A stretch of DNA of 41,741 nucleotides, taken from positions 1 to 41,741 of the forward strand of contig JADCJJ010000039.1 of NCBI GenBank assembly GCA_020247085.1, read 5' to 3'. The DNA is from Myxococcaceae bacterium (GTDB lineage: Bacteria; Myxococcota; Myxococcia; Myxococcales; Myxococcaceae). Position 1 is the stretch's first letter; every line of letters begins with the position of its first letter. The translations under genes were made by a program, and so were the position numbers. Below are positions 6,820 to 41,741 of the stretch, piece after piece. The notes beneath the pieces were generated by a model, which was not told the DNA's origin, did not search any database, and saw only the letters and a program-made list of their open reading frames with translations.

Positions 6820-8784
6820 ATGACGACCTCGAGGCTCCCACTCCTGCTCCTCGCGCTGGCCGGCTGCTCGAGCCGGCCCCCCGAGCCCCCGGCGATGGGC
6901 AACGGCATCGGCCCCTTCCGCGGGCTGCGCGCCGTGCCCCGGCAGCTCGCCTTCACCTGCGTCACGCCGGGCTGCGACACCACGCTGGTGCTGAAGGTGG
7001 CGTCGACGGTGAACCGCCGCGTCGCCATCAAGCGCGTCATCTTCTCGAAGGCCTCGGCCGAGTACTCGCTGGTGCCCTCGCAGCCGGCGCCGTTCATCCT
7101 CGGGGCCGCCGGCGAGTTCACCATCGACGTGCGCTACACGCCCGAGTCGGCGCCGGCGGCCGACGACCTGAAGGTGCTGGTGACCTACACCGACGCCTCG
7201 CCCGACGAGCAGGACCCGGACCGCCTCGAGCCCGCCGAACTCGAGGTGCCCATCGTGCGGCGGCTCGTCGGCGAGCCCGCGCTCGCGCTGAGCCCGCCGA
7301 AGCTCACCTTCGGCCTGGTGCCCGCGGGGACGACGAAGGAGCTGCCCGTCACCGTGCGCAACGCCGGCTTTGGCAACATCGCGCTCGCGCTCGACCAGGT
7401 CGACGCGGGGCACCCGTGGGTGGCGGTGTCGCTGCCGCCGTTGACGGCGCTGGTGCCCGACGCGGGCGTGACGGTGCCGGTGCGCTTCTCGCCGCTGACC
7501 CGCGGCTACTACCGGGGCGACGTCGTGCTCGGCTCGTCGACGCCAGCGGTGGGGGCCGTGGCGCTCGAGGTCGAGGGCACCAGCTTCGTCGACGGCGTCA
7601 TCGCGCTCGAGCCCGAGGAGCGCGCCATCGACTTCGGCGACGTCTCGCGGCGGCAGCGGCGCACCGTCACCATGCAGCTCGCCAACCTCGGCGGGCAGGC
7701 GCTCTTCGTGTCGAGCGTCACCGTGCGCGACCCGTCGAACAACGTGCGAGCCTCGCTCCCCAATGCGATGCAGAGCGCGACGCTGCCGTCGCTGAGCCGC
7801 TTGCCGGTCACCATCGAGCTCGACGCCGCCACGCCCGGGCAGGTCGACGCCATGCTCGTCATCGCCTCGACGGACGTCGCGCGGCCCAGCCTCGAGGTCC
7901 CGGTGCGCGGCACCGTCACCGAGCCGCGGCTGGCGGTGGCTCCGGCGATGCTGGCCTTCGGCTCGGTGCCGCTCGGGTGGCAGGTGGCCCGCCCGGTCGA
8001 GCTGAGGAACGTCGGCTTCGGCGCCCTCACCGTGCGCCGCCTCACCTTCGTCGGCGGCACCTCGAACCTCTACGCGCTGAAGAACGCGCCGGCGTTGCCG
8101 GCCACCATCGCCGCCGGGGGGCGGGCCGTCGTCGAGGTCGAGTTCCGCGCCGACACCATGGCCACCTTCGGCGGCGAGCTGTCCATCGAGTCGGACGACG
8201 CGGTGAACACCATCACCACCGTTCCGCTGTCGGCCACCGGCGCGTCGTGCAGCCAGGGTTGCATGGTGGCCAACGCGACGCCCTCGTGCATGAACGGCGC
8301 TTGCGGCATCGCGAGCTGCAACGCCGGCTACCACAACACCGACGGCCTGCTGTCGAACGGGTGCGAGTGCCAGGAGCTCGGCATGGACCCGGCGGGCTTC
8401 TGCAGCATGGGCGTCTACAAGGGCGTGCTGCGCGACACCTCGAACGCGTCGGCGCAGCACACCGGCATGATTCCGACCCCGGACGACGTCGACTGGGTGA
8501 GCTTCTACGCCGAAGACGCCAACAACCTCTTCGGCGACGACTTCGACGTGCGCATCACCCTCACCGCGTCGGACCCGAACATCGTCATGTGCGTCTACCG
8601 GCAGCGCTCGAGCGCGCGGCAGGGCTTGTGCTCGATGAACGAGGCCACCTGCGACGTTCGCAGCTACCGCAGGGACGGCAGCCTCGGCACCGACGATGGC
8701 GCTGACTTCGACATCAAGGTGTATCGGCGGGCGAACAGCGCGCCGACGTGCACGACATACGCCTTGAGCATGCAGAACGGCTGA
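6820..8784 (+). CDS. Choice-of-anchor D repeat lipoprotein with Cys knot and PPC-like tail
   Basis: The ATG at 6820 is preceded by a strong ribosome site, GGGGAG at 6807-6812. The 654-residue product has a lipoprotein signal (LLLLALAGC). Several Ig-like modules follow, each with the choice-of-anchor-D signature (L-T-F-G-L-V-P-A-G-T, A-I-D-F-G-D-V-S-R, L-A-F-G-S-V-P-L-G) and an N-x-G-F/G core. A Cys-rich knot (C-S-Q-G-C ... C-M-N-G-A-C ... C-N-A-G-Y ... G-C-E-C) leads to a final domain with D-D-V-D-W-V-S-F, typical of the bacterial pre-peptidase C-terminal fold. It is the paralogous partner of the preceding gene and most likely co-transcribed. A surface binding or scaffold role is inferred from the folds; no ligand can be named. 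Confidence 0.82.
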   Translation: MTTSRLPLLLLALAGCSSRPPEPPAMGNGIGPFRGLRAVPRQLAFTCVTPGCDTTLVLKVASTVNRRVAIKRVIFSKASAEYSLVPSQPAPFILGAAGEFTIDVRYTPESAPAADDLKVLVTYTDASPDEQDPDRLEPAELEVPIVRRLVGEPALALSPPKLTFGLVPAGTTKELPVTVRNAGFGNIALALDQVDAGHPWVAVSLPPLTALVPDAGVTVPVRFSPLTRGYYRGDVVLGSSTPAVGAVALEVEGTSFVDGVIALEPEERAIDFGDVSRRQRRTVTMQLANLGGQALFVSSVTVRDPSNNVRASLPNAMQSATLPSLSRLPVTIELDAATPGQVDAMLVIASTDVARPSLEVPVRGTVTEPRLAVAPAMLAFGSVPLGWQVARPVELRNVGFGALTVRRLTFVGGTSNLYALKNAPALPATIAAGGRAVVEVEFRADTMATFGGELSIESDDAVNTITTVPLSATGASCSQGCMVANATPSCMNGACGIASCNAGYHNTDGLLSNGCECQELGMDPAGFCSMGVYKGVLRDTSNASAQHTGMIPTPDDVDWVSFYAEDANNLFGDDFDVRITLTASDPNIVMCVYRQRSSARQGLCSMNEATCDVRSYRRDGSLGTDDGADFDIKVYRRANSAPTCTTYALSMQNG

Positions 8785-37948: not shown

Positions 37949-38431
37949 GTGGACACGGTCGACCTTCACGTCTGGTACGAGCGCTATGGTGAGGCGGTCT
38001 TCCGGAGGTGTCTGCGCATCGTCGGAGACGAGGCTCTGGCCATGGACCTTCTGCAGGAGACGTTTCTCCGCGCGCACAAGTACCGGGCGTCATTCAAGGG
38101 CGCGTCGGCGCTGAGCTGGCTCCTCACCATCGCCGACCGGACCTCGCTCACCGCGCTCGGGGCGCGCCCTCGGGTGTCCTCGGCCGAAGAGGTCGAGCGG
38201 TTCCTCGAGACCGAGGCCGACCCGAAGGAGCCCTTCACCCAGCACCGCCTCGTCGCCGAGCTGTTGACCCGCGCCGACGAGCGCACCCGCGCCATCGTCA
38301 TGCACCGCTACTTCGACGAGCTCGAGCTCGAAGACATCGCCCGCCGGCTCGACGTCAACGAGCGCACCGTGCGCCGGAAGCTCGAGCAGTTCCTCGCCGA
38401 CTCCCGGCGCTTCGTCGAGAGGCGCGCATGA
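37949..38431 (+). CDS. ECF-type RNA polymerase sigma factor
   Basis: GTG 37949 (GGAG at 37941-37944) gives 160 residues. Region 2 reads V-W-Y-E-R-Y-G-E-A-V-F-R-R-C, A-L-A-M-D-L-L-Q-E-T-F-L-R-A-H, S-A-L-S-W-L-L-T-I-A-D-R, and region 4 is a clean helix-turn-helix: R-A-I-V-M-H-R-Y-F-D-E-L-E-L-E-D-I-A-R-R-L-D-V-N-E-R-T-V-R-R-K-L. It should direct polymerase to a small regulon, probably including its own operon. The next gene starts in its stop (ATGA at 38428), which codes for an anti-sigma-like protein. An AT-poor spacer of about 106 bases separates it from the divergent lipoprotein, where its promoter should lie; no clear element could be fixed. Confidence 0.9.
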   Translation: MDTVDLHVWYERYGEAVFRRCLRIVGDEALAMDLLQETFLRAHKYRASFKGASALSWLLTIADRTSLTALGARPRVSSAEEVERFLETEADPKEPFTQHRLVAELLTRADERTRAIVMHRYFDELELEDIARRLDVNERTVRRKLEQFLADSRRFVERRA

Positions 38432-39105
38432 AGGCCCGCTTTCACCCGGTGACCGACCTGGATGTCGAGCGCTACCTCGTCGGAGAGCTCTCGGGCGACG
38501 AGGCCGCTCGCGTCGAGGCGGCCGCCCGCGCCTCCGAGGTGCTCCAGCGGCATCTCGACGAGCGCCGCGCGGCGAAGCGGGCCTTCGCGCTGAAGCGCCC
38601 CCCGCTGCGGCTCCCGGCGGCGACCCGCCCGGCGTGGTGGCCGTGGGCGCTCGCGCTCCCGGTGGCGGCCGCCGCGCTCGTCGCGGTGGTGCGCCGAGCT
38701 CCCGTCGAGGGTGACGGCCCGGGCATCGCCCGTCGGGGCGCCGAGGTGGCCGAGGTCGAGATTGCCGTGCAGCGCGAAGAGGCCGTCTTCCCCTGGCGCG
38801 CGGGCGTCATCCTCGAGCCGAAGGACAGGCTCCGCCTCACGGTGAAGACGGCGGCGCCGAGCGTTGCGACCCTCATCGGCGAGGACGCGAGGCGGGAGCC
38901 GGTGATTCTCTACGAGGCCGTGGCCCTGCCCGGTGGAGCGCTGACGCTGCCGGGGAGCCTCGAGGTCGATGACACCCCTGGCGGCGAACGCCTGTACCTC
39001 TTCGTGGGGCCCACCGCGCCAGACGCGCCTGCGCTGCTGAAGGCGGTGCGCGCTGGCCGGGCCGATGGGGCCCTCGTCATCACGCTCGAGAAGCGCCGGC
39101 CATGA
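38428..39105 (+). CDS. Anti-sigma-factor-like membrane protein
   Basis: Its ATG overlaps the sigma stop (ATGA). The 225-residue protein has a cytosolic helical head (D-L-D-V-E-R-Y-L-V-G-E-L-S-G-D-E-A-A-R-V-E) of the kind seen in anti-sigma proteins, but without the HxxxCxxC zinc motif. One membrane helix (about residues 70-88, WWPWALALPVAAAALVAVV) follows. The outer part is a beta domain: V-I-L-E-P-K-D-R-L-R-L-T-V-K, S-V-A-T-L-I-G-E-D, G-E-R-L-Y-L-F-V-G-P, resembling DUF4384-type domains. It probably holds the sigma at the membrane until an envelope signal is sensed. The next gene again overlaps at the stop. Confidence 0.75.
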   Translation: MKARFHPVTDLDVERYLVGELSGDEAARVEAAARASEVLQRHLDERRAAKRAFALKRPPLRLPAATRPAWWPWALALPVAAAALVAVVRRAPVEGDGPGIARRGAEVAEVEIAVQREEAVFPWRAGVILEPKDRLRLTVKTAAPSVATLIGEDARREPVILYEAVALPGGALTLPGSLEVDDTPGGERLYLFVGPTAPDAPALLKAVRAGRADGALVITLEKRRP

Positions 39106-40676
39106 GGGTCGTCGGGCTCGTGCTGCTGCTGGTGGCCCACGGCGCCTCGGCGGCGGTGCGCTTCGCGCTCGTCATCGGGCACGACGTCGGCCTGCCCGAC
39201 GAGCGCGCGCTCCACTGGGCCGAGTCCGACGCCGCGAAGGTGTTCCGGCTGCTGACCGAGCTGGGCGGGGTCGACGAGGCCCGCGGCGCGCTGCTGCAGG
39301 GCCAGCCGGTGCGCGCCGTCGAGCTGGCGATGGCCCGGCTGGCCGGACAGGTGGCCGAGGCGCGTCGGCGGGGTGAATGGACAGAGGTCATCGTCTTCTT
39401 CTCCGGGCATGGCGACCTCGCCACGCTCCACCTCGGTGACGACCGGCTGCCCCGGGCGACGCTCGAGGCGTGGGTGAAGGCGGTACCCGCCGACGCGACC
39501 CTCGTCTTCATCGACGCCTGTCGCACCGGCCCCGTGCGAAGCGGGGCCTCGAAGGGGTTGCGCCGCGCGCCGGCCTTCGACGTGCGGTTCTCCCGCCAGG
39601 CGGGCATGTCGGGCCGGGTCACCATCGAGTCGGTGGGGGCGGACGAGTCGGCGCAGGAGTCCGACGACCTGCAGAGCGGCTTCTTCACCCATCACCTGCT
39701 CGCCGGGCTGCGCGGCGCCGCCGACGTCGACCGGGACAAGCGCGTGTCGCTCGCCGAGGCGTACCGGTACGCCTACCACCGGACGGTGACGACGTCGTTC
39801 GGCGCCGCTGAGGCCGCGCAGCACCCCTCCATGAGCGCTGAGCTCGAGGGCGAGGGCGAGTTCATCGTCACCTCGCTCGACCGCGCCAGCGCCCTGCTGC
39901 AGGTCGAGGCCGACGTCTCCGGCGAGCTCCTCGTCCTCGACGACGCCGCTGGGACCGTGGTGTCCGAGGTGCGGCTGTCGGGGGCGGGGCCGCTGGTGCT
40001 CGCCCTGCCGGTCGGGGACTACCGGCTGGTCCGCCGGGCGGGGAGCCGTGTCTGGGCGGGGCGGGCGCGGCTGGTCTGGGGGCGGAGCGCGACGGTGACG
40101 GCGGAGCAGCTCGTGGAGCAGCCACGCGTGGCGGCCATGCAGCGCGGCGCGAGCCTCGAAGTCGCGCCGTGGCGTCTGTGGGCAGGGGGCTCGGCGGCCG
40201 CTCCGCGGGCGCTGGGCGCGGGCATCAGCCTGGGCGTCCGAGCCGGGGTGGAGCGGCGCCTCACGGGGTTGTGGGGGGTTGGACTCCGGCTGGGGGGAGG
40301 CAGCGCGCGCGCGCTGACGCCCCGCTGGGCGCTGCAGCAGGTCGAGGTCGCCGGGGGGCCGGTGGTGACGGTCGAGCGCGCCGTCGGGCTGGTGCGGCTG
40401 GGGCTGGCGCTCGGCGTCGAGGGCGTCGGCATCGTGTCGGCGGGTGTCCACCTCGAGGCGGAGCGGCTGGCGTCGGCCGACGCGGGCCCCGTGCAGACCG
40501 ATGGCTGGACGCTCGGCGCGGGGTTTCAAGCCGACGCCTGGGTGGGGCTCGCGCTACCTGCGAGCCTCGAGCTGCGGCTCTCTGCAGGCATGGCGGTGTC
40601 ATGGGTGGTGGTGAGCGGCCAGCCGCGCACGACCTGGGCGCCAGCGCTGGTGGTCGCGCTCGCGGTCGCTCGCTAG
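39102..40676 (+). CDS. Secreted caspase-fold (C14) protease with a C-terminal beta-barrel-like region
   Basis: ATG 39102 overlaps the anti-sigma stop. The 524-residue protein has a signal peptide (VVGLVLLLVAHGASA). The caspase domain spans about 20-250: R-F-A-L-V-I-G at the first strand, catalytic H103 in F-F-S-G-H-G-D and catalytic C140 in V-F-I-D-A-C-R-T-G, then G-F-F-T-H-H-L-L-A-G-L, D-V-D-R-D-K-R-V-S-L and Y-R-Y-A-Y. A beta domain (about 265-330) follows. The last 160 residues are alternating amphipathic strands rich in G, with a terminal stretch ending V-V-A-L-A-V-A-R, like an outer-membrane barrel. Co-location with sigma and anti-sigma suggests proteolysis in an envelope signal route; the target is unknown. 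Confidence 0.85.
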   Translation: MRVVGLVLLLVAHGASAAVRFALVIGHDVGLPDERALHWAESDAAKVFRLLTELGGVDEARGALLQGQPVRAVELAMARLAGQVAEARRRGEWTEVIVFFSGHGDLATLHLGDDRLPRATLEAWVKAVPADATLVFIDACRTGPVRSGASKGLRRAPAFDVRFSRQAGMSGRVTIESVGADESAQESDDLQSGFFTHHLLAGLRGAADVDRDKRVSLAEAYRYAYHRTVTTSFGAAEAAQHPSMSAELEGEGEFIVTSLDRASALLQVEADVSGELLVLDDAAGTVVSEVRLSGAGPLVLALPVGDYRLVRRAGSRVWAGRARLVWGRSATVTAEQLVEQPRVAAMQRGASLEVAPWRLWAGGSAAAPRALGAGISLGVRAGVERRLTGLWGVGLRLGGGSARALTPRWALQQVEVAGGPVVTVERAVGLVRLGLALGVEGVGIVSAGVHLEAERLASADAGPVQTDGWTLGAGFQADAWVGLALPASLELRLSAGMAVSWVVVSGQPRTTWAPALVVALAVAR

Positions 40677-41019: not shown

Positions 41020-41520
41020 GAATGGGGGCGCTCCGTGACGCGTGGAGGTGTCGTGCGAGGACTGCCACGAGTCTCGCCTGGTGGCCTTCTGCTGCAAGGG
41101 GCGCGGGTGGTGTCCCTCGTGCACCAACCGGCGGGCCGTCGAGACGGGCGTGCGCCTCGCCGCGCTGCTGCCGCGCGTGCGTCACCGCCAGTGGACCCTC
41201 AGCATCCCCTTCACGTTGCGCGTCGTCGTCGGCTTCTCCCTCCACGCCGACACCGCCGTCCAGGGCAACGACAGGCAGGGCCTCGAGAGACTGTGCCGCT
41301 ATGGCAGCAGAGGGCGTGTTGCCGAGTCTTTGACTGCGCCGGCACGACGACGGCCGCTCCGAGTACTCCCCCAAGGGGAAGGACGCCTCCGGCCGCCCGC
41401 GCAGCGCCTTCGTCCTCACCGCCGCCGCCTCGACTGGGCCTCGCTGCACCGGCACACCCTCGGCACCGACGTCCTGCGCTGCCCCTGTGGCGGCCGCCGG
41501 CGCCTTCATGTCATCCACTC
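41020..41520 (+). mobile_element. Decayed IS91-type transposase fragment
   Basis: The zinc-ribbon of IS91-family (Y2/HUH) transposases is present: V-S-C-E-D-C-H-E-S-R-L-V-A-F-C-C-K-G-R-G-W-C-P-S-C-T-N-R-R (about 41047-41135), then L-L-P-R-V-R-H-R-Q-W-T-L-S-I-P-F. The central catalytic part is missing: the frame jumps straight to G-F-S-L-H-A-D-T and L-E-R-L-C-R-Y. A shift then leads to D-D-G-R-S-E-Y-S-P-K-G-K-D-A-S-G-R-P-R-S-A-F-V-L-T in another frame, another deletion, and the C-terminal L-D-W-A-S-L-H-R-H-T-L-G-T-D-V-L-R-C-P-C-G-G-R. These pieces occur in the right order in intact relatives. It cannot transpose by itself. Bases 41521 to the window end show nothing clear. Confidence 0.85.
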
Positions 41521-41741
41521 CACCAGGAAGACGGCAAAGGGAGCGCCTCCTCCAACTCGGCCACCGCCTTGCGCCTCGTCACGTCCTCCCGCCCGCCACC
41601 GCCCAACCCGCCCTCCCGCTGGCTGGCTGACGGACACCGTCTCGCGTCTCTGGCCATCGCGGGCGGTGCACCCGTCCGCCCACTGCCGCCGGTTCCTCCC
41701 TCGCTGAAGCCCCCTCACCCTCGCGGCAACGCCCTCGAGGA

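Follow-up and report, generated by a model that had tools for sequence, protein, structure and literature searches.

A caspase-fold protease encoded with an ECF sigma factor and a membrane anti-sigma factor in Myxococcota, and its predicted role as a site-1 protease

What does a secreted caspase-fold protease do in an operon with a sigma factor? The question is raised by three overlapping genes at positions 37949 to 40676 of contig JADCJJ010000039.1 (assembly GCA_020247085.1) from a Myxococcaceae bacterium; the whole stretch analysed, 41,741 nucleotides long, is called the window below. The genes encode an extracytoplasmic function (ECF) sigma factor, a membrane anti-sigma factor and the protease. 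From a comparison of this cassette with its relatives we propose that the caspase probably processes itself and is also the enzyme that cuts the anti-sigma factor at site 1, by which the sigma factor would be released, with the cleavage itself predicted from sequence. The elements involved are the following.

37949..38431, + strand: ECF sigma factor gene; GTG start, 160 aa, sigma2 and sigma4 regions with Pfam and NCBIfam matches
38428..39105, + strand: membrane anti-sigma factor gene; 225 aa, with a head, one transmembrane (TM) segment and a DUF4384-like outer domain
39102..40676, + strand: secreted caspase-fold protease gene; 524 aa, Pfam C14 match and AlphaFold2 (AF2) model; signal-peptide-like start, caspase domain, small beta-sandwich, linker and 8-strand barrel
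39408..39410, + strand: catalytic His103 (His in 189/189 unique caspases)
39519..39521, + strand: catalytic Cys140 (Cys in 189/189 unique caspases)
38734..38739, + strand: predicted site-1 cut R103-G104 at the boundary of TM segment and outer domain in the anti-sigma factor, from [K/R]G conservation
39552..39557, + strand: predicted self-cut K151-G152 in the loop after Cys140 ([K/R]G in 61/61)
40143..40148, + strand: predicted self-cut R348-G349 at the junction of protease part and barrel ([K/R]G in 60/61)
40170..40670, + strand: predicted 8-strand outer-membrane beta-barrel, residues 357-523, from AF2 strands and Foldseek

An earlier note on this DNA had described three genes tightly overlapped through a double ATGA, and verification of the open reading frames (ORFs) and their frames showed that both junctions, sigma/anti-sigma and anti-sigma/protease, are indeed 4-nt ATGA overlaps. 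The first gene was read in that note as a complete ECF sigma factor, in agreement with Pfam matches above cut-off to both sigma regions (Sigma70_r2, 8.6e-12; Sigma70_r4_2, 1.1e-8) and with a sigma70-ECF score of 66 bits against a cut-off of 42.9. The middle protein of the window matches no Pfam family above its cut-off. It is a member of a family (profile E 5e-42) whose profile, A1, matches the solved anti-sigmas ChrR (4.5e-6) and 3hug chain B (2.8e-4), and DdvA and RsiW weakly. By these sequence matches the middle protein is an anti-sigma factor carrying the N-terminal anti-sigma helical domain of class I (ASDI), and inhibition of the sigma factor is predicted. A single hydrophobic segment is present, and the model comprises a helical head (residues 10-56) and a beta-sandwich outer domain (109-222); a Foldseek search with this model gave no match at E<=0.001.

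The anti-sigma-like head had been described as lacking a zinc motif. This is correct for the window copy, which has one TM segment and carries A32, S36 and L39 at the H/C/C positions, leaving no zinc ligands. It does not extend to the family: HxxxCxxC occurs in 55 of 61 members, and six, the window copy among them, lack it; a zinc-free head as a family trait is thereby ruled out. Mixed groups with and without zinc are normal among class I anti-sigmas, with Hx3Cx2C in ~56% of ASDIs (PMC7406223; here and below, statements on cited papers refer to the accessible part of each text). Pfam matched zf-HC2 in 13/61 family members, the window copy not among them, and DUF4384 (PF14326) in 29/61, with no match in the window copy at E<=0.01.

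The third protein was expected to be a secreted caspase-fold protease with H103 and C140 as catalytic residues and a barrel-like tail, and this description stood, with export and barrel as predictions. Peptidase_C14 is matched above the Pfam cut-off (3.3e-6), both residues are present, and the His/Cys dyad is intact in all 189 unique caspases collected below. In the AF2 model (predicted local distance difference test, pLDDT, 85.6) the caspase domain is followed by a small beta-sandwich and by a closed 8-strand barrel (357-523), the closure that the earlier note had proposed to check in a model. Metacaspase 4 and caspases are among its best structural matches, Arabidopsis metacaspase 4 heading the VIA-align rows (205 residues aligned at 2.8 A, Z 21.0). 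Foldseek matched the barrel to NspA (1p4t, E 1e-6), Ail (3qra, 1.1e-5) and OmpA (9fzd, 1.2e-5). Among caspase family members Pfam recognised Opacity in 6/61 and OMP_b-brl in 2/61, and simple strand counts in the tails, a weakly informative measure, gave 10.0 against 7.1 in shuffled sequences. According to the model, the tail is an OmpA/NspA-like 8-strand barrel with a predicted outer-membrane location. NF047832 (Caspase, EACC1-associated) scored 42.8 bits against a cut-off of 140.

A search for conserved sigma-antisigma-C14 triplets, as suggested in the earlier note, found the neighbours kept together: in the pooled data with duplicates removed, sigma and anti-sigma genes both lie <=2.5 kb from the caspase gene for 158 of 189 unique caspases, a figure valid for this family and not for bacterial caspases generally because loci were chosen by likeness to the window caspase. 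Caspases sharing an identical core stretch and those without a recognisable catalytic-Cys motif were left out before the count of 189. Loci missing a partner were scored as incomplete; several lie at contig ends, and three (L103, L329, L344) have an anti-sigma gene and upstream sequence too short for a sigma gene. Chance adjacency of the three genes is ruled out by these 158 linked loci.

A relative is present in 37/40 genomes examined (own genome counted). The own genome has seven caspase paralogues, six of them in a sigma/anti-sigma/caspase triplet; for the seventh (L008), whose match begins 938 bases from a contig end, no partner was found. In a first set of 67 loci, which joins the own copies to the 60 matches in other genomes that scored best, same-strand sigma, anti-sigma and caspase genes occur in 61, and a sigma homologue lies upstream of the anti-sigma gene in 61. 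Exact -4 overlaps were counted in 52 of the 61 triplets at the first junction, in 53 at the second and in 46 at both together, counts that are somewhat generous because start codons were chosen as nearest to the overlap. Fifty further matches, part of the remaining listing, have both partners in 36 cases, sigma alone in 3, anti-sigma alone in 3 and neither in 8. Named genomes covered by a single scan (Corallococcus, Myxococcus, Archangium, Sorangium, Labilithrix, many Myxococcota metagenome-assembled genomes (MAGs) and Spirochaete MAGs) gave 80 loci, 47 of them complete triplets in the gene order of the window, and the Spirochaete MAGs hold two complete triplets, L147 and L160. At 17 other scanned loci the sigma gene is downstream of the caspase gene, accompanied in 14 by an anti-sigma gene, most commonly in the order caspase, other gene, sigma, anti-sigma. 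The linkage thus persists across differing gene orders. The complete genome of a 13.2 Mb relative (G012) encodes 12 caspases, with a sigma gene beside 12/12 and an anti-sigma gene beside 11/12.

Two side observations concern these neighbourhoods. Loci with the other gene order (L158, L165, L167, L171, L174 and similar) encode a secreted Cys-rich protein between the caspase and the sigma/anti-sigma pair; it carries a conserved F.LWCG..LC.W stretch and is a possible extra sensor. Orphan caspases with self-sites and no sigma or anti-sigma gene (L168, L180, L133, L134, L008) have other conserved neighbouring ORFs in common, including a large Cys-rich ORF on the opposite strand, and may have a different substrate.

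Metacaspases cut after Lys or Arg. A scan of the three protein alignments found exactly three near-invariant [K/R]-G sites in the cassette and none in the sigma factor. They lie in the caspase loop after the catalytic Cys (residues 151-152, 61/61), in the linker between caspase and barrel (348-349, 60/61) and in the anti-sigma factor (103-104, 60/60 A1 rows with a residue there, the 61st row being truncated); residue 204 of the caspase forms a fourth column, with R-G in just 39/61. Among the 158 complete loci the anti-sigma site was found in 157. Sites at these loci were read by alignment columns, the nearest [K/R]G within 10 residues being taken if the column had none, which was done for one loop, three linker and two anti-sigma sites. 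Both caspase sites fall in low-pLDDT segments of the model (145-166 and 346-353), and R103-G104 stands ~14 residues outside the membrane, past the membrane segment and ahead of the first predicted strand (109). The three sites are where one would predict cuts that free the active-site loop ends, the enzyme from its barrel and the outer domain of the anti-sigma factor. The putative S1 aspartates are also conserved (D43 in 157/158, D138 in 157/158); the D43 region aligns with the metacaspase ND(A/V) stretch, and D138 is two residues before the Cys. In the Trypanosoma brucei metacaspase TbMC2 an Asp95/Asp211 pair accommodates basic residues (PMC6426788), and we infer from the alignment that D43/D138 is the equivalent acidic S1 pair. 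One orphan caspase (L128/L163) without partners has a shorter tail; both of its self-sites are gone, and the dyad is retained. At L320, one of the divergent loci described below, the anti-sigma factor retains K-G.

Anti-sigmas without a caspase served as controls, scored for [K/R]G <=25 residues after the TM segment. Caspase-adjacent anti-sigmas have the dipeptide in 6/6 cases in the own genome, in 10/10 in G012 (TM called) and in 3/3 in family f5. This compares with 2/10 and 0/8 among anti-sigma-like proteins without a caspase in the own genome and G012, respectively, and 1/4 among the closest caspase-less homologues, those of family f5. These counts omit rows without a called TM segment or without room after it (L219, L228, L279, L287, L291) and, in G012, rows without an anti-sigma frame (L289, L293-L300). 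The sharpest control comes from the family f5 genomes, which have a further sigma/anti-sigma pair belonging to this family (profile E ~1e-28 to 1e-30) with a DUF4384-type anti-sigma and no caspase in the stretch examined (L372, L373, L374 and L376, with anti-sigmas L387-L390). In L387, L389 and L390 the membrane segment runs directly into the same outer domain without K/R-G.

We also compared the P1 residue, Lys or Arg, between the caspase loop and the anti-sigma factor in the 158 complete loci. It is K in both at 146 loci, R in both at 8, K in the loop and R in the anti-sigma factor at 2 (the window and L136), and the reverse at 0; the remaining 2 miss one of the two sites. In some loci the preceding residue is repeated at all three sites as well (ERG in L321, SRG in L311). 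A caspase tree from which the loop was left out, with three rows read by eye (L315, L316, L317) added, shows 3 changes in the loop and 4 in the anti-sigma site, and on it L315, L316 and L319, with K at both places, nest beside the R-type L317 and L318. Random placement gave a figure of 11/200000, which is crude and no formal test. These patterns are suggestive of K/R co-evolution between loop and anti-sigma factor, and it is from the shared, co-varying [K/R]-G site that we infer a caspase cut at R103-G104.

The steps would run as follows. The sigma factor would be held by the cytoplasmic head of the single-pass anti-sigma factor, as homology suggests. The protease would leave the cytoplasm, its barrel fixing it to the outer membrane and its caspase part facing the periplasm, a topology suggested by the model. 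A signal would activate the caspase, with self-cuts at K151-G152 and R348-G349, the latter allowing the caspase to leave the barrel. The activated caspase would then cut the anti-sigma factor at R103-G104, the site-1 cut of regulated intramembrane proteolysis, after which a general site-2 protease and cytoplasmic proteases, established in other systems, would free the sigma factor. The earlier note had envisaged a proteolysis-to-transcription circuit in which the protease processes the outer part of the sensor; comparison strongly favours it through linkage, dyad, S1 pair and matched sites, and the cut itself remains a prediction. An expanded form of this proposal strikes us as plausible but somewhat short of probable: across the family the barrel may be a ligand or damage sensor and the self-releasing caspase the site-1 protease of its own anti-sigma factor, recognising a private, co-evolving [K/R]-G, so that a single genome would run about a dozen insulated lines from caspase to transcription.

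Several observations weigh against site-1 cleavage by the caspase. Two caspase-less anti-sigmas keep the dipeptide, L388 (same locus as L373; R-G, read by eye as no TM segment was called) and L222 of the own genome (K-G, no caspase in the stretch examined). The window copy itself has K in the loop and R in both linker and anti-sigma factor, which breaks the loop match, and just 2-3 of the co-varying pairs are independent by descent, too few for significance in a sign test. Many orphan caspases keep the [K/R]G self-sites without sigma or anti-sigma genes, so these self-sites are independent of the anti-sigma factor. Divergent caspases with TCHSG or CHSG at the Cys (L310, L320, L381, L383) are without the loop site though a sigma gene adjoins, and the linker site was also not found in L310 and L320. 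Finally, no conserved cleavage sites are reported for type I metacaspases (PMC4357240).

Could the caspase instead be an output of the sigma factor and not its activator? The DUF4384-like domain would then sense envelope stress, and the operon would auto-induce a protease acting on other envelope proteins. The third gene of a sigma operon often belongs to the regulon, the tight ATGA overlaps would suit co-expression under both explanations, and the orphan caspases have their self-sites without a sigma factor. We nevertheless consider such an output unlikely, as it does not account for three findings: that [K/R]G is nearly invariant in the anti-sigma linker, that 3/4 caspase-less homologues lack it, and that K and R switch in concert. 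Another explanation would have the likeness between the anti-sigma and caspase sites be coincidental, the dipeptide marking where the outer domain begins structurally, or serving another, general protease as its site. Its position shortly ahead of the first predicted strand, by a few residues, and its retention in L388 without a linked caspase would fit. Two findings make this quite improbable: L387, L389 and L390 have the same outer domain and lack the dipeptide, which rules out that K-G is a fixed component of the DUF4384-like domain, and K/R identity tracks the caspase loop.

The earlier note had offered an outer-membrane death or stress effector as its other option, and nothing found supports a death effector. 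A death or lysis enzyme restrained until the sigma factor fires would suit a caspase fold in developmentally complex bacteria, and a 2012 survey speculates that myxobacterial metacaspases act in autolysis (PMC3501461). With 12 copies in the one genome G012, no toxin-antitoxin-like partner seen and a matched site that points to the anti-sigma factor as substrate, we find this very hard to credit.

How does the predicted site-1 cleavage by the caspase compare with known systems? In RseA/DegS/RseP and RsiV/RsiP a membrane anti-sigma factor is cut outside the membrane as the first step; the site-1 proteases there, DegS or signal peptidase, are encoded elsewhere and are neither caspase-fold nor barrel-anchored. 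FecI-FecR-FecA links a sigma factor, a membrane anti-sigma factor and an outer-membrane protein, FecA, which is a TonB-dependent transporter, whereas here an 8-strand barrel bears a protease; Pfam found no TonB-dependent receptor domain in the window protease at E<=10 or in family members at E<=0.01. The 2012 survey (Asplund-Samuelsson et al.) concerns operons of sigma-70 and metacaspase genes. It places four of five M. xanthus metacaspases in operons with sigma-70, reports such operons also in Anaeromyxobacter, Haliangium, Sorangium, Ralstonia and Fibrobacter, and proposes a role in programmed cell death or development (PMC3501461). Very likely these are the same cassettes as here; the accessible part of that text does not mention the anti-sigma factor, barrel tail, cut sites or anti-sigma proteolysis.

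A further parallel is Craspase, in which the TPR-CHAT protein Csx29 cuts Csx30, the inhibitor of the ECF-type CASP-sigma (PMC10028731). In both cases a caspase-superfamily protease is set against the inhibitor of an ECF-type sigma factor, the cut being predicted here. Craspase is cytoplasmic and triggered by CRISPR RNA (PMC10028731), whereas the present cassette combines a barrel-bearing C14 protein, which starts with a signal-peptide-like stretch, with a membrane anti-sigma factor of another family. A CHAT domain with TPR repeats is absent, Peptidase_C14 being the sole match in a Pfam scan of the protease at E<=10, and a cytoplasmic Craspase-like system was ruled out on this ground. Proteolytic control has also been proposed for EACC2-caspase/TRADD-N neighbourhoods with an ECF sigma factor (PMC8195603) and for ECF54 with CHAT proteins (PMC8999054). 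Both share with the cassette a caspase-like protein adjoining an ECF sigma factor; they have other partner domains, and the accessible parts of these papers mention no membrane zinc-type anti-sigma factor or barrel. Our searches of the open literature turned up no published description of a caspase that acts on a membrane anti-sigma factor in this family, nor of the cut sites or the barrel of the cassette.

Two further features of the window may be recorded. Positions 41042-41704, directly downstream of the cassette at the contig end, encode an IS91-type transposase zinc-binding domain (Pfam 9.3e-9), and the product of positions 6820-8781 has Ig-like domains of the HYDIN/ASH type (Pfam 3e-18), which are eukaryote-like repeats although the source is bacterial.

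The roles of bacterial caspase homologues are largely open, and they are usually discussed as death enzymes. For a large caspase family there is now a concrete predicted substrate, predicted cut sites at the level of residues and a sigma read-out by which they can be tested with a reporter. If the prediction is true, a caspase-fold enzyme anchored in the outer membrane would join the known site-1 proteases, and the cassette would be an envelope counterpart to the Craspase-Csx30-sigma pathway.

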